From Candidatus Thalassarchaeaceae archaeon (GTDB lineage: Archaea > Thermoplasmatota > Poseidoniia > Poseidoniales > Thalassarchaeaceae), in assembly GCA_030748775.1 (NCBI GenBank), contig JASMLH010000007.1, positions 1-56,435 on the forward strand: DNA of 56,435 bases, read 5' to 3'. Shown here one piece after another: positions 1,917 to 56,435 of this stretch. Each line of letters begins with the position of its first letter. The first letter of the stretch is position 1. Position numbers and translations under genes: made by a program. Under the pieces are notes generated by a model. It had not been told where the DNA came from. It was given only the letters and a program-made list of their open reading frames with translations, and made no database searches.

Positions 1917-3119
1917 CTATATTGCCAACTCCGCCCAGCCCTTCAGGCAAAGGAACATTGCCAGAGACTCGCCGACCTCCTTCATGTCTCCCTCGGATAA
2001 TGTGACATTTTCACCATTAATCTCAGCCACAACGTCATCTCTGAGGGCCCTGATCATGGTACTCTCTGAGCCGAAGGCGACAGCTTCTGTCAGCGGGTTA
2101 AACGGATCGTCTCCCTCCGGATCTAGTCTCGATAGAGGAAATTCCGTAACCCGGAGGCCAGATTTGCCGTGTAGGCTGCCCACCCAGCGAATTACCCTCT
2201 TGGTATCAACAGTTACAGCCTCGTCGGTCTCGCCAGCTGTTCCCATTACCACAGAGGAGTCTCCTTTTACCAGTTCCCAGAATATCGGTGTGCAAACGTC
2301 CCCGAACACAGATAGCTTGTGATCAGCTCTAAGCCTATTGACCCTGTCATCTGAATCGGCAAGTTCAGCAAGTTCGGATATTCTGGCCTTTGCCGTAGAC
2401 TTCAATTGGACCCTTGGCGACTTGGCCCTAGTAGTCAAGATACCATGAAGCTCATCGATTATTGCAGTCTTTCCAGCCTCGCCGCTGGATATTGAATTTA
2501 GTTTGTTCAAGACTGCGTCCATACCGGAGATTGCGCGGGACCCCCACGAGGAGTTGCTCGTCAACGCCGACTGGATGTCTATACCGTCTCCTCGGATGTA
2601 ATTCACAATCTCACGTCGTGCATTCGAGTCAAGGTGCATGAGATTGGGATCGCGGACGTGAATGTGGAATCCCCTATGGCCGGAAAATGTGGTCTGCACG
2701 TACTCCTGTTTGAATCCAAATTCTGGCTCAAGGAACTCGGACCAAAGCCTCCATGCCTGGCCCTGGATGGTTTCTATCATAGTAGGAAAGTCTGTATCAG
2801 AAACTCCGGGAAGGTGATCGCCGTCGAGATCGAAAATCAAGTCGGCCCCTAGCCACCCCTTCTCTGACATCTTCCTGTTCTGTGGTTCGGTGTAGTATGC
2901 AGTGCTGTGGAAGCATGAGTGTGGGGAGCGGCTAGTCAGGTATGAGTGGAGCTCGGGCTTATCCAGGAAGGCACGGTGCCTATCTGGTGCGGCTCCACCC
3001 CATGGAACGAACATCCACTCCCTGTTCTTCAGTCGTGGAGGAACCCAAATCTGCTCCGGAGTTGTGGACCCATAGAATTCTGAGAACCGCAATGCAAACC
3101 GGCTCCAACCCCCTGCCAT
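1917..3119 (-). CDS. priS: DNA primase small (catalytic) subunit PriS
   Basis: Archaeo-eukaryotic primase catalytic subunit, which makes RNA/DNA primers at replication forks together with PriL. The active-site acidic pair is visible in LIFDLDGDHLPG (about residues 94-105), and the nucleotide-binding motif is SGHRGFHIHV. The N-terminal SEFYGS and 400-residue length fit the family. I chose the ATG at 3119; an in-frame TTG at 3125 would add two residues. It lies 36 bases behind a zinc-finger microprotein and ahead of the EF-hand gene on the same strand. PriL is not in the window. Confidence 0.93.
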   Translation of the reverse strand: MAGGWSRFALRFSEFYGSTTPEQIWVPPRLKNREWMFVPWGGAAPDRHRAFLDKPELHSYLTSRSPHSCFHSTAYYTEPQNRKMSEKGWLGADLIFDLDGDHLPGVSDTDFPTMIETIQGQAWRLWSEFLEPEFGFKQEYVQTTFSGHRGFHIHVRDPNLMHLDSNARREIVNYIRGDGIDIQSALTSNSSWGSRAISGMDAVLNKLNSISSGEAGKTAIIDELHGILTTRAKSPRVQLKSTAKARISELAELADSDDRVNRLRADHKLSVFGDVCTPIFWELVKGDSSVVMGTAGETDEAVTVDTKRVIRWVGSLHGKSGLRVTEFPLSRLDPEGDDPFNPLTEAVAFGSESTMIRALRDDVVAEINGENVTLSEGDMKEVGESLAMFLCLKGWAELAI

Positions 3120-3155
3120 GAGCAATCATATGGCAGGTGGGACATAAGTTTTCAA

Positions 3156-3438: not shown

Positions 3439-4293
3439 ATGAATGGCGGCCCTCTTGGAGTTAGAATAGGCCACTCGCCGGATCCAGATGACGCGTTCAT
3501 GTTCTATGCCCTTACATCCGAGGCAATAGATACTGGGGGAAGGGCTTACGAACATGTGCTAGTGGACATCGACACACTCAACTCTGAGGCGAAGGAAGGC
3601 ACATACGAAGTTTCGGCAGTTAGCATCCGGTCGTTTCCTGAAATCTCTGAAAGATACGCACTGATGAACTGCGGTGCTTCTATGGGAGAGGGATACGGGC
3701 CAATGGTCATTTCACGCGGTGCGATGTCGCTGGATGAAGTCAAGGATGTGGTGATCGCCATTCCGGGGATGAGTACTAGCGCGTATATGACACTAAGATT
3801 GGCATTGGGGGATGTTGAAGTCCAAGAAGTCCCATTCGATGAGATATTGCCAGGGGTTCTCTCTGGCGAATTTGAGGCTGGAGTGATTATTCACGAGGGT
3901 CAATTGACTTGGAAGATAGAGGGGGCTAATCTGGTAATCGATCTAGGACTATGGTGGAACGAGAGGACTGGGCTCCCGCTGCCCTTGGGTGGTAACGTAG
4001 TACGTCGGGATGTTGGAATGAAAGAGTGCGAGGAAATTACGGATGACGTCAGAAGGAGCATCGAGCATGCCTTGGAGAATCCCGGACTGGCATTGGAGTT
4101 TGCTAGGAAGTGGGGAAGAGGGATTGACGCGGATACGAACGAGAGGTTCGTAAAGATGTACGTAAACCAACGTACTGTGGACTATGGTTCCGATGGGAGG
4201 GAGGCAGTCAGACTCTTCCTAAGAATGGGCCAAGAGATTGGAATGATTAGGGAAGACTTCGATGTCGAGTCAATTGACTTCGTAGGAGCGTGA
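3439..4293 (+). CDS. mqnD: 1,4-dihydroxy-6-naphthoate synthase MqnD
   Basis: Last dedicated step in making the naphthoate ring in the futalosine route to menaquinone: cyclic dehypoxanthinyl futalosine is converted to 1,4-dihydroxy-6-naphthoate. Family hallmarks are GHSPDPDDAFMFYAL near the N-terminus, GPMVISR, IIHEGQLTW, and the GLPLPLGG motif of periplasmic-binding-protein-like Mqn enzymes. I chose the ATG at 3439 (284 residues), directly before the conserved VRIGHSP start; a TTG at 3382 would add 19 unconserved residues. It ends one base before the half-DOHH gene. mqnA and mqnE lie just downstream on the other strand. Confidence 0.88.
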   Translation: MNGGPLGVRIGHSPDPDDAFMFYALTSEAIDTGGRAYEHVLVDIDTLNSEAKEGTYEVSAVSIRSFPEISERYALMNCGASMGEGYGPMVISRGAMSLDEVKDVVIAIPGMSTSAYMTLRLALGDVEVQEVPFDEILPGVLSGEFEAGVIIHEGQLTWKIEGANLVIDLGLWWNERTGLPLPLGGNVVRRDVGMKECEEITDDVRRSIEHALENPGLALEFARKWGRGIDADTNERFVKMYVNQRTVDYGSDGREAVRLFLRMGQEIGMIREDFDVESIDFVGA

Positions 4294-4294
4294 T

Positions 4295-4771
4295 ATGTTG
4301 GATGAAGGAAGGCCAGAAGTGAGTGAGTTCGGATCTGTTGACCCTGCCCCTGCGAGCGATGGGAATAGCGTGGCTGACCTTAGGACTACCATTTGCGACG
4401 AAGACGAGAAGATGTTCCAGAGAATGAGGGCCCTGTTCGCACTTAGAAATATTGGCGGCGAGGACTCGGTCGAAGCACTCGCCGCTGCCTTCGGCTCAGC
4501 CTCGGCCCTATTGAAGCACGAGATCGCTTATGTCCTAGGGCAAATGCAAGATGATCATGCAGTTCCGCATTTGATCGAAAGGCTCGAGGATTTAGACGAG
4601 GACGTAATGGTTCGTCATGAGGCAGCAGAGGCCCTCGGAGCTATTGGCAATAGGAGTGCTATGGTCACTCTGGAGAAATTTGTCAATGACGAAGAGATAG
4701 TGGTCGCAGAATCATGCGAGGTCGCGATAGACCTTCTCAACTGGGTTTCTAGCAAGAGGTTGGATTACTAG
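4295..4771 (+). CDS. Half-length deoxyhypusine hydroxylase-like HEAT-repeat protein
   Basis: A 158-residue HEAT/PBS-lyase-type repeat protein that closely resembles one half of eukaryotic deoxyhypusine hydroxylase (DOHH), the di-iron enzyme that completes hypusine on eIF5A. The two iron-ligand HE motifs are at residues 75-76 (LLKHEIAYVLGQ) and 108-109 (MVRHEAAEALGAI). The N-terminus carries SVDPAPA (residues 14-20), which in eukaryotic DOHH is the linker just before the C-terminal half, and RALFALRNIGG and ESCEVA also match that half. Eukaryotic DOHH has four HE motifs in two halves; this protein has two. An in-frame TAG at 4283-4285 excludes an upstream first half. A GGAG precedes the ATG, and the gene starts one base after mqnD. 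Substrate candidate aIF5A is at 54.3 kb. Confidence 0.82.
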   Translation: MLDEGRPEVSEFGSVDPAPASDGNSVADLRTTICDEDEKMFQRMRALFALRNIGGEDSVEALAAAFGSASALLKHEIAYVLGQMQDDHAVPHLIERLEDLDEDVMVRHEAAEALGAIGNRSAMVTLEKFVNDEEIVVAESCEVAIDLLNWVSSKRLDY

Positions 4772-4776
4772 GCCAC

Positions 4777-5571
4777 CTAGATATCGAACCACTGCGGCGG
4801 TTCGGCGACATTGCACACCTCGTCCAAGAAGTATTCCAAACCCCTGATTCCTTCAGCATCCAGAATGTTCCCAACTTCTTCGTCGAAGTATCGTTCGACG
4901 CGTGATTCATCGTACTGCATCCTTCTCGCAACGTCGGACACTACCTTTTTGCGGACATTTGGTTCGTTGATGAATATCTCGTACTGATTCAACATTAGCT
5001 CATGCGCTTCCCGAATTGGACCAATTGGAGAGTCGGCCAGTGCAGCGAACACACCGAAAACCATTGGTAGACCGGTTATCCTGGTCCATTCAAACCCGAG
5101 ATCCATTACGATCGAGTCCGGGTCGTCCCTTGCGACGTCAAGTGCTCGATCGCCTATCAATAGAGCACCGTCGCACTTCTCGAGCATAGAGTCTATGTCT
5201 GGGCCCATCTCTATTAGCCTCGGATCGTTTCCGTTCCTTTCCAAAAGCCACTTCAGAAGGGCCGTCGAGGTGGACGAATCGGAAGGGATTGCAATGTCCC
5301 GCATTGACTCTATTGTCCTGTGTCCAAAGAGCAGAACGGAGCCAACCTGTCCCTTACTCACTATTCCGATGTCGGGAATAAGTCGAAATTCAGATTGGAA
5401 TTTCCCATAATCCGCAGTAGGAATCGGCGCAGTGAGGCAGTCCCTTCGGAGAAGGTGGCCGGTCAACCAAGAGGGTGGTGCCGCTAGAACATTCCATTCT
5501 GACCCGATGGAGTGGAATACCGGATCGCAATTGATGAACGAGACCCTGCCGAGCACTTCCTTCCATGACAT
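4777..5571 (-). CDS. mqnA: Chorismate dehydratase MqnA
   Basis: First committed enzyme of the futalosine menaquinone pathway, dehydrating chorismate to 3-[(1-carboxyvinyl)oxy]benzoate. Visible hallmarks are VSFINCDPVFHSI at the N-terminus, the TAPIPTADYGKF segment that parallels the family's S/T-rich binding loop, STSTALLKWLL, and LLIGDRALD. The length of 264 residues is normal. It follows mqnE with an 8-base gap and is convergent with mqnD and the half-DOHH gene, whose stop lies 5 bases away. MqnA and MqnD are distant homologues; the N-terminal and IGDRAL motifs favour MqnA here. Confidence 0.87.
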   Translation of the reverse strand: MSWKEVLGRVSFINCDPVFHSIGSEWNVLAAPPSWLTGHLLRRDCLTAPIPTADYGKFQSEFRLIPDIGIVSKGQVGSVLLFGHRTIESMRDIAIPSDSSTSTALLKWLLERNGNDPRLIEMGPDIDSMLEKCDGALLIGDRALDVARDDPDSIVMDLGFEWTRITGLPMVFGVFAALADSPIGPIREAHELMLNQYEIFINEPNVRKKVVSDVARRMQYDESRVERYFDEEVGNILDAEGIRGLEYFLDEVCNVAEPPQWFDI

Positions 5572-5579
5572 ACGGGCAC

Positions 5580-6842
5580 CTATCCCTGCTCGACGATTGG
5601 TAGTTCTAGTCGATGAATCTGTCCATTCGACCTGTAAACATCGGCAGAGGTGTAATCGGTGTTCCTCCTCACTGCCGTTTGCCCGGTAGACTCGACTAGT
5701 CTGGCTAGCTCATCTCGATTGTAGTCAGTCCTCGTCATGCTCCCTGCTTCGTGCATGATCTCCTCGTGGCCGACCGTGCCATCGATATCGTCTGCCCCCG
5801 ATTTAATGGCAATAGTCGCCATATCGTCTCCTATATTCATCCTATATGCCTTTACATGGGGGATGTTGTCTAGCATTATTCGGGAAATTGAAATTACACG
5901 AATAATTTCCTCTGGCGATGAGAGAGACGCCTCGGGGAGTCTGGTTCTATCAGGAAGAAACGGGTAGGGAACAAAGCACTGGAATCCTCCCGACTTGTCC
6001 TGTTGCTGCCTAAGTAAGTCTAGGTGAATCATCCTTTCTCTCACGGTCTCTATTGTTCCGAAGAGCATAGTGCAATTTGTAGGAATGCCCAATTCATGGG
6101 CTTCCCCATGAATTGCTAGATATTCCTGTGACAGTTCCTTGCCTCTACAAATCCTATCCCTGACAGAATCAACAAGAATCTCAGCTCCTCCGCCAGGTAG
6201 AGAGTCGAGGCCAGACCCAAGAAGGGTCCGTAGCGCCTCCTTGGTAGAAATTCCCGATCTTCTGGCAATGTGCTTGACCTCGACAGCTGTAAGTGATTTG
6301 ATACTGATTCCAGGGAAGCTGAGTTTGACATCGCGGAATAATTTGGCGTAGTCATCGACCTTCCACTCAGGGTGCAAGCCACCGACAGCATGAACTTCGT
6401 CAATTGAGTTGGAAAATGGCTCTATACGTGATATGAATTCCTCGGGGCTGAGCGCATAAGCTTCTTCATGCCGTGAGCCCCTTCTGAATGCACAGAATCG
6501 ACATGCCAAGGTGCAAATGTTTGTAGTATTTACATGTAGGTTTTCATTAAAAAACACGTTATCCCCAAATCTCGATCGCTTGACCATGTCAGCTAGTGCA
6601 GCGAGGCCTGAGATTGTGGTTTCATTGTGCATCCTAATGCCCTGCTCCACTGAAATTCTACGGTGGTTCTTCAGTTCCTCCAGTGCTTCTGCCAAAACAG
6701 GTTGATTGGAGACCGAGAGGGGGGTTCTCATGGTATTCAGTCGAGATACCCAATCCTGTTCGATGGGAGGAACTGCCAGCATCAATATCGTGGAATGAAC
6801 CATATGATTTGAATAGCTCTGAGAGGAGGTTTCTTCAATCAT
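5580..6842 (-). CDS. mqnE: Aminofutalosine synthase MqnE (radical SAM)
   Basis: Radical SAM enzyme joining the MqnA product to SAM to form aminofutalosine. The iron-sulfur motif CTLACRFC (CxxxCxxC) is present, followed by the MqnE signatures VHAVGGLHPEW, GLDSLPGGGAEIL, AHELGIPTNCTMLFG, and SGGFQCFVPYPF. CofH and MqnC are relatives, but these motifs favour MqnE. The ORF gives 420 residues from the ATG at 6842; an ATG at 6731 would give about 383, closer to the family norm, so the start is uncertain. It is cotranscribed with mqnA. MqnB and MqnC are not in the window. Confidence 0.87.
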   Translation of the reverse strand: MIEETSSQSYSNHMVHSTILMLAVPPIEQDWVSRLNTMRTPLSVSNQPVLAEALEELKNHRRISVEQGIRMHNETTISGLAALADMVKRSRFGDNVFFNENLHVNTTNICTLACRFCAFRRGSRHEEAYALSPEEFISRIEPFSNSIDEVHAVGGLHPEWKVDDYAKLFRDVKLSFPGISIKSLTAVEVKHIARRSGISTKEALRTLLGSGLDSLPGGGAEILVDSVRDRICRGKELSQEYLAIHGEAHELGIPTNCTMLFGTIETVRERMIHLDLLRQQQDKSGGFQCFVPYPFLPDRTRLPEASLSSPEEIIRVISISRIMLDNIPHVKAYRMNIGDDMATIAIKSGADDIDGTVGHEEIMHEAGSMTRTDYNRDELARLVESTGQTAVRRNTDYTSADVYRSNGQIHRLELPIVEQG

Positions 6843-54327: not shown

Positions 54328-54729
54328 CTAGTGGTCGCGGGTGATCTTGTACCTTCCCAGTGCTTCCATCCACTGGATCTCCCCGCCGGACTGTAGGTTC
54401 ATGCTGTCGTCCTTGGGCAGAGTCAGCTCCTGGTACGTCTTGTTGTCGAGGGCCTTGACCCATTCTCCCTCGAAGTGGGTCACTATGGCGGAGCCCTTCT
54501 CGATGATCGGGATGTTGATCGTGTCTGTAACCGTGCCCACGTGTGACCTCTTCTGGCCGGTGAAGATGTCCTCTAGCTCAATCCTTGCCTTGGCAGAGCC
54601 GTGCTTGCCGGGCTTGGACTTGGTCATGCTGAGGATCTTGAAGGCGGACATGGAGCCGTTGGGCTCCTCGACCGCGACGTATCTCCCAACCTTGAGGGTC
54701 CTGATTTCAGCACGAGTGGTACCTGGCAC
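54328..54729 (-). CDS. aif5A: Translation factor aIF5A (hypusine-containing)
   Basis: Archaeal homologue of eIF5A, which relieves ribosome stalling. The 133 residues include the hypusination loop SKPGKHGSAKARIE, with Lys42 as the modified residue by alignment to the GKHG motif, then the OB-fold domain (residues about 66-133). A deoxyhypusine synthase gene is not in the window, but a DOHH-like half enzyme is at 4.3 kb. It lies upstream of the OPT transporter on the same strand, with a GC-rich hairpin 43 bases ahead of its ATG. Confidence 0.94.
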   Translation of the reverse strand: MPGTTRAEIRTLKVGRYVAVEEPNGSMSAFKILSMTKSKPGKHGSAKARIELEDIFTGQKRSHVGTVTDTINIPIIEKGSAIVTHFEGEWVKALDNKTYQELTLPKDDSMNLQSGGEIQWMEALGRYKITRDH

Positions 54730-54829: not shown

Positions 54830-56435
54830 TCAGTCGTCCTTTCGGCGTCCCAGCACGGCAGCGCCGAGCAGGGAGATCGCAGCTAGTACGGCCGGGAACC
54901 CTGGAGTGAATCCAGGCGTCTCCTGACCACCCACAGCTTCGCTTCGGTCACCGACAGGAGTCGGGTCCGTAGCATCGCACTCGCCGTCGCCATCGTAGTC
55001 GGATGGCGTCGAGTTGGGGTTCTTCTCGTCAGTGCCGCAGTCGTACTCGTTGGTGTCCGAGTAGCCGTCGTCGTCGTCGTCTTCGTCGGCGTTGTCGCCG
55101 GTCCCGTCTCCGTCCGTGTCTGCCCACTCGGTCTTGTCCATTGGAGCCCAGTCGTCGTCGTTGGGCACGTCGTCGCCGTCGATGTCTGAGTCAGAGTTGT
55201 CTCCGATGTTGTCTCCGTCGGTGTCAGTGTCCTCGGCTGGGTTCAGTGGCCACCTGTCGTCGGCGTCTGGAACTCCGTCGCCGTCGTCGTCGTCGTCGGC
55301 GTTGTCGCCGACGCTGTCGCCGTCAGTGTCCCTCGACTCTGTGGGGTCGTAGGGGAACGCGTCCAGTCCGTCAGGCACGCCGTCGTTGTCGTCGTCGGGG
55401 TCGGCGTTGTCGCCGACGCTGTCGCCGTCGTTGTTCGAGATCTCGAGGGGGTCCAGTGGGAACGCGTCCTCGAAGTCTAGCTCGCCGTCGTTGTCGTCGT
55501 CAGGGTCTTCGTTGTCCCCGATTCCGTCGCCGTCAGTGTCGTACTGCTCGTTGGGGTCCATTGGGGCCCAGTCAGAGACGTCAGGCACGCCGTCGTTGTC
55601 GTCGTCGGCATCGCTGTCGTCGTCGGCTCCGTCGCCGTCGTTGTCGGCGCTGGTCGTCGGGTCCTGGTCGAACTGGTCGAACTCGTTGTCGATTCCGTCG
55701 CCGTCGGTGTCGTTGTCGGAGTTGTCTCCGATTCCGTCGCCGTCGAGGTCGTCCCACTCGCTCGGGTCGTACGGGAACGCATCCAGTCCGTCCGTGACGC
55801 CGTCGTTGTCGTCGTCAGGGTCTTCGTTGTCCCCGATTCCGTCACCGTCGCTGTCGACGTGCTCGCTCGCGTCCATTGGGAATTGATCCCACTCTGTGTC
55901 ATCGCCGTCCCATCCGGGGTTCACAAGTCCTAGTTCGTCGAGGTTCCCGTTCTCGCATCCTGGCATATCGCAGTTGTTCAGCTCCCAGTACTCATCGAAG
56001 TTGATGGTGCTGCTGTTGTCGGCATCGAACATGAGCAGGTAACCCCATGTGGAGTTGAACTCCTCCTCGGAGATGCCTGAGCTGTACTCGTCTTCGTGGT
56101 ACTCGTCCTCGCCTCCTATGCAGTCGTCTACGCCGTCGTTGACCTGGTCCATCCATATCGTGGTGCCTTCGAAGCAGTCGAACCAGTTGGTCTTGTTACC
56201 ATCCTCGTCGTACTGCTGCTCGTCGGCGCCCAACGGGCAGTCGTCTACGCCATCGTTAACCCACTCGAAGGGTATCTCAGAGCCGTCGCCGCAGATGTAG
56301 GTGATCCCATCACCGCCATCGCCGACACCGAAGTAGATAGCCAACTCGAATTGGTCAACTTCGCCATCGTCACTGGAGTCAGCTCCGTTGAAGTTGTCCA
56401 CCAGGCAGTCTAAGAACCCGTCAAGGTCCTCACTG
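54830..56435 (-). CDS. PGF-CTERM surface protein with Asp-rich calcium-type repeats (5' end cut by window)
   Basis: The frame is open to the window edge, so the N-terminus and any signal peptide are missing; at least 534 codons are seen. In order: an acidic N-terminal part, two LDL-receptor-A-like modules (56102-56302), an EF-hand-like segment FDADNSSTINFDEY, eight full and one partial Asp-rich repeats of 34-35 residues (54947-55855), and a C-terminal sorting signal. The repeats (DTDGDGIGDN...DDDNDGV) match thrombospondin type 3/EF-hand-like calcium modules. An extracellular, calcium-stabilised, archaeosortase-anchored protein is the likely reading. Confidence 0.9.
   Translation of the reverse strand, partial: SEDLDGFLDCLVDNFNGADSSDDGEVDQFELAIYFGVGDGGDGITYICGDGSEIPFEWVNDGVDDCPLGADEQQYDEDGNKTNWFDCFEGTTIWMDQVNDGVDDCIGGEDEYHEDEYSSGISEEEFNSTWGYLLMFDADNSSTINFDEYWELNNCDMPGCENGNLDELGLVNPGWDGDDTEWDQFPMDASEHVDSDGDGIGDNEDPDDDNDGVTDGLDAFPYDPSEWDDLDGDGIGDNSDNDTDGDGIDNEFDQFDQDPTTSADNDGDGADDDSDADDDNDGVPDVSDWAPMDPNEQYDTDGDGIGDNEDPDDDNDGELDFEDAFPLDPLEISNNDGDSVGDNADPDDDNDGVPDGLDAFPYDPTESRDTDGDSVGDNADDDDDGDGVPDADDRWPLNPAEDTDTDGDNIGDNSDSDIDGDDVPNDDDWAPMDKTEWADTDGDGTGDNADEDDDDDGYSDTNEYDCGTDEKNPNSTPSDYDGDGECDATDPTPVGDRSEAVGGQETPGFTPGFPAVLAAISLLGAAVLGRRKDD
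54833..54916 (-). other. PGF-CTERM sorting signal
   Basis: The last 28 residues are tripartite: PGFTPGFP, a hydrophobic stretch (AVLAAISLLGAAVLG) and a basic end (RRKDD). This is the established recognition signal of archaeosortase A; artA is at 34.4 kb. Confidence 0.88.
54947..55855 (-). repeat. Tandem Asp-rich protein repeats, about 102-105 bp each
   Basis: Eight full and one partial copies of a 34-35 residue unit of pattern DxDGDGxGDNxDxDDDNDGVxDxxDxFPxDPxE. At DNA level the Asp codons are nearly all GAC, giving runs of GTC on the plus strand (for example near 55071 and 55280), which could promote slippage or recombination between copies. Confidence 0.88.
56102..56302 (-). other. Two degenerate LDL-receptor class A-like modules
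   Basis: The minus-strand protein reads CGDGSEIPFEWVNDGVDDC then CFEGTTIWMDQVNDGVDDC, each followed by an acidic GADE/GEDE. The spacing of CxDGxxI, NDGxxDC and xDE is that of LDL-A calcium-binding modules, but each keeps only two cysteines rather than six. Confidence 0.55.

Follow-up and report, generated by a model that had tools for sequence, protein, structure and literature searches.

Hypusine is present in some archaea, and papers published in 2012, 2016, 2018 and 2020 state that no archaeal homologue of deoxyhypusine hydroxylase (DOHH) is known (PMC3306375, PMC5178350, PMC6105217, PMC7773846). These statements agree with the initial annotation of the DNA analysed here, which held that clear DOHH genes are not generally reported from archaea. 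Our literature search on DOHH and Asgard found no report within its coverage, which left out bioRxiv preprints and most subscription papers; an earlier report of an archaeal DOHH may exist. The locus described here, on a 56,435-nucleotide stretch of DNA from a Candidatus Thalassarchaeaceae archaeon (the window), raises the question of whether archaea have a DOHH made of half the eukaryotic protein.

The open reading frame in question begins with ATG and has 158 codons. The features of the window that bear on its function are:

4295..4771, + strand: DOHH-like gene of one module (158 aa; four HEAT hairpins)
4334..4351, + strand: SVDPAP segment, residues 14-19, aligning with the linker that precedes the human DOHH C-half
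4517..4522, + strand: His75-Glu76 motif, aligned to human H56-E57 and H207-E208
4616..4621, + strand: His108-Glu109 motif, aligned to human H89-E90 and H240-E241
4284..4287, + strand: GGAG, a candidate ribosome-binding-like site by sequence reading, 7 bases 5’ of the ATG
3439..4293, + strand: mqnD-like futalosine-pathway gene (Pfam PF02621, E=4.8e-69), directly upstream
54328..54729, - strand: aIF5A, the presumed substrate (TIGR00037 above cut-off), its hypusine loop, KSKPGKHGSAK, being intact

The positions first given for the two HE motifs of this 158-residue HEAT protein (75-76 and 108-109) were confirmed on re-reading; RALFALRN occupies residues 45-52 and MVRHEAAEALGAI residues 105-117. 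An in-frame TAG stop at 4283-4285 lies 5’ of the ATG, so that at most three extra upstream residues are possible. With this stop in place and no second half upstream in the window, the claim that none precedes the gene also holds.

Human DOHH (4d4z) is the best match of the protein in a phmmer search of the PDB (E=3.8e-70, 238 bits), which rules out a chance resemblance, and it is the sole close natural relative with a solved structure in the PDB sequence comparison. The two human halves are matched separately, with i-Evalues of 2.8e-30 and 2.2e-36. The initial annotation had assigned the resemblance to the linker and C-terminal half; that match is slightly the stronger (128 vs 109 bits), but both halves match and not the C-half alone. 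A profile of 29 Poseidoniales sequences retrieved human DOHH from the PDB with E=3.1e-91. A family profile built from 70 archaeal sequences gave human DOHH 297 bits and its single halves 140-161 bits, whereas generic HEAT_2 proteins from eleven related Thermoplasmatota genomes reached at most 26 bits, as would be anticipated from the original reading of the protein as kin of DOHH rather than of generic PBS-lyase HEAT proteins. Scores are much lower for the remaining natural HEAT proteins of the PDB (MTH187, for example, 26.8 bits). Nothing in these comparisons put the protein among generic PBS-lyase HEAT proteins, a result that the initial annotation had named as refuting.

An AF2 model of the monomer (pLDDT 90) has eight helices forming four hairpins, with low confidence in the N-terminal arm that contains SVDPAP (residues 1-20, pLDDT about 55). 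When this model was used in a Foldseek search, 4d4z ranked first (E=2.7e-10, TM 0.81) and the next match was about 1e5 weaker. Sequence, profile and fold comparisons all place the homology to DOHH beyond what generic HEAT repeats share. The second-best sequence and fold matches are alphaReps, designed proteins of consensus HEAT-like repeats, as expected from those consensus repeats; they differ from half-DOHH in being artificial and having no metal site.

The archaeal module and eukaryotic DOHH (human DOHH, PDB 4D4Z; yeast Lia1; EC 1.14.99.29) share the SVDPAP linker, the S-A-L-x-x-H-E and M-V-R-H-E motifs and a four-hairpin module fold. Identity of the module to the two human halves is 45% and 48%, and identity between those halves is 40%. 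The eukaryotic enzyme has two modules and four HE motifs, whereas the archaeal protein has one module and two HE motifs and, unlike eukaryotic DOHH, must dimerise if its predicted activity is to have the same mode of action.

The gene, first described from a single archaeon, belongs to a family that extends across the phylum, mostly in Poseidoniales. With matches at E<=1e-15, the gene was found in 72 of 293 Thermoplasmatota genomes. By manual tally from the genome tables, carriers make up 63/82 Poseidoniales (29/40 in the window's own family and 34/42 in a second family) and 9/211 Thermoplasmatota outside that order, these nine being distributed over six families. All of the intact copies that were inspected consist of one module and carry an SVDPAP-type arm; none of them has two tandem modules (eight HEAT hairpins). 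The half length seen in the window is therefore a genuine, conserved state, and the linker is retained, as had been proposed. Two copies from GC-rich genomes lie in long surrounding open frames and have one module match apiece. Equal length at all compared loci, including the non-Poseidoniales copies, rules out truncation or an assembly artefact. Relatives are absent from the plasmids, phages and viral contigs searched, and human DOHH halves used as queries found no relative among the viral contigs, which discounts a mobile-element or viral origin.

Family members diverge down to about 40% identity. Across 89 aligned archaeal sequences, His75, Glu76, Gly82, His108 and Glu109 are nevertheless 100% identical and DPAP is near-invariant. 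Of the near-invariant columns in this alignment, 36/39 equal the human C-half and 29/35 alignable ones equal the N-half. The human DOHH ligands of the di-iron centre and of the deoxyhypusine side chain are H56/E57/G63/H89/E90 and H207/E208/G214/H240/E241 (PMC9117371). Gly82 aligns to human G63/G214, where that review prints G65; the chain numbering of human DOHH in our alignment is the published residue number plus 5. The dN/dS of 0.05 against the closest relative places the gene under purifying selection.

The reading that we consider probable is that the gene encodes an archaeal DOHH whose homodimer rebuilds the four His-Glu, two-iron site. Human DOHH consists of two symmetrical four-hairpin domains (PMC3306375). 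Each archaeal chain has two invariant His-Glu motifs, and a dimer would have four. Because a chain holds half of the ligands and human DOHH is symmetrical, a homodimer is the simplest completion of the site. A heterodimer partner is unlikely, since no second DOHH-like gene was found in a nearly complete one-contig genome (G015), and a separate N-half is likewise missing upstream in the window. The archaeal enzyme would thus be one four-hairpin module and not two, and two copies would associate like both halves of eukaryotic DOHH, so that four His-Glu pairs, two per chain, would make the di-iron site. DHS would first put the deoxyhypusine side chain on the aIF5A loop lysine, and the di-iron site would then hydroxylate it using O2. 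The homodimer, the iron, the O2 chemistry and the substrate are what we infer; the four-HE homodimer is consistent with all results.

The pathway that would supply the substrate, an IF5A lysine loop together with DHS, is present, canonical DHS being taken from related genomes. aIF5A was found in 18/20 related genomes, with the K-P-G-K-H-G loop in 18/18, and a DHS-family gene (PF01916, about 290-340 bits) in 20/20; the SWGK active-site motif occurs in 4/4 canonical DHS genes read. Most of the 20 genomes have a second PF01916 gene, scoring about 125-145 bits in Poseidoniales. For this divergent paralogue (e.g. L082:1441-2409) the nearest model is the homospermidine biosynthesis model PRK00770, and it falls under all curated cut-offs. 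The 58%-complete genome from which the window comes yielded the divergent paralogue but no canonical DHS, a point against the DOHH reading.

Carriers outside Poseidoniales all have a heme-copper oxidase, as expected for an enzyme that uses O2: COX1 is present in 9/9 of them vs 54/211 overall (Fisher p=2.8e-6 with genomes treated as unrelated, and about 4e-4 by a rough family-level count). Many aerobic Thermoplasmatota are without half-DOHH, which counts against the DOHH reading.

In its own family, none of the genomes sampled from two genera (four each) has the gene, and it is also missing from several in the sister family. In Poseidoniales genera that lost it, DHS persists and so does aIF5A, its loop unchanged; genomes without the gene also keep the mqnD-like gene. 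Three of the genomes that have no intact copy carry short, decayed remnants of half-DOHH (L134, L135, L136) next to the mqnD-like gene; two of these remnants have broken frames and one is the first 26 codons only. The two Poseidoniales families separate in the gene tree, which fits vertical inheritance followed by several losses. As aIF5A and DHS stay where the gene is lost, half-DOHH is dispensable; this is no argument against a DOHH function, because DOHH is non-essential in S. cerevisiae, which survives without it (PMC3306375).

The mqnD-like stop ends 1 base 5’ of the half-DOHH ATG, and the two genes are probably co-transcribed. This order is kept in Poseidoniales, where half-DOHH directly follows the mqnD-like gene and lies beside a primase-like or mqnA-like gene. 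In the window, 3439-6842 holds the futalosine-type menaquinone genes mqnD-like, mqnA-like and MqnE/MqnC/CofH-like, the last a radical SAM gene scoring under equivalog cut-offs, and the gene at 1917-3125 (-), a conserved neighbour of half-DOHH, codes for a DNA primase small-subunit domain (PF01896). At the other end of the window, 54830-56401 (-) encodes a long, acidic, repetitive protein with many DxDxDG motifs and a hydrophobic C-terminal tail, probably a calcium-binding protein secreted to the surface. That half-DOHH is linked to the mqnD-like gene and not to aIF5A or DHS counts against the DOHH reading.

This linkage speaks for an explanation in which the protein is a DOHH-family homodimeric di-iron hydroxylase acting on another substrate, for example in the menaquinone pathway: nearly all Poseidoniales loci have the gene directly 3’ of mqnD-like, with mqnA- and mqnE/C-like genes close by. 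We regard this as unlikely, as the mqnD-like gene is kept where half-DOHH is lost, none of the nine copies outside Poseidoniales has an mqn gene in the flanking sequence retrieved, and the glutamates and glycine that bind deoxyhypusine do not vary. The half length would also suit a DOHH derivative without catalytic activity, a monomeric HEAT scaffold for aIF5A or the ribosome, and HEAT proteins are mostly non-enzymatic (PMC9040561); such a scaffold would have no need of ligand positions that are all invariant despite the divergence of the family, and we give it a still smaller chance than a change of substrate.

Going by database labels, the protein would be a generic HEAT protein of the PBS-lyase or CpcE/NblB type, Pfam and NCBIfam giving just HEAT_PBS, HEAT_2 and sub-threshold NblB/CpcE. 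PBS-lyase HEAT proteins (CpcE/CpcF, NblB, YibA, MTH187) do have the HEAT_PBS fold in common with half-DOHH, but their scores against it are weak and far under their own curated cut-offs (NblB 41.7 of 300 bits, CpcE 28 of 330 bits), compared with 238 bits for human DOHH, and YibA is described as being without the DOHH active-site residues (PMC3306375). Together with the low scores of generic HEAT proteins against the family profile, this refutes a generic HEAT protein or lyase at the sequence level and makes that assignment extremely improbable. The reading that we retain as probable is a homodimeric archaeal DOHH.

Its origin is less clear-cut. When the end of the module (LLEWV) is followed by its start (PExSxFxSVDPAP), the result is similar to the linker between the human halves (LEWL ... 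GEPAAGPYLSVDPAPP). A tandem fusion would produce such a sequence, which fits a single-module ancestor. The ancestral DOHH may have been an archaeal one-module homodimeric di-iron oxygenase whose duplication and fusion gave the eukaryotic enzyme, with the second module's N-terminal arm as the linker; we put this at slightly short of an even chance. Truncation of an acquired eukaryotic gene is possible. In a tree whose only eukaryotic sequence is human DOHH, the two human halves have long branches, a single clade of these halves has a p-AU of 0.13, and the tree does not root them.

Hypusine in Sulfolobus stays unexplained by half-DOHH, because a HEAT_2-family search of the S. acidocaldarius control genome gave no match. 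If our reading is true, a half-size DOHH widespread in abundant marine archaea (Marine Group II) would be one answer to the question of the archaeal hydroxylase, and would represent a minimal di-iron oxygenase consisting of two copies of one chain. The origin of eukaryotic DOHH would then become testable.
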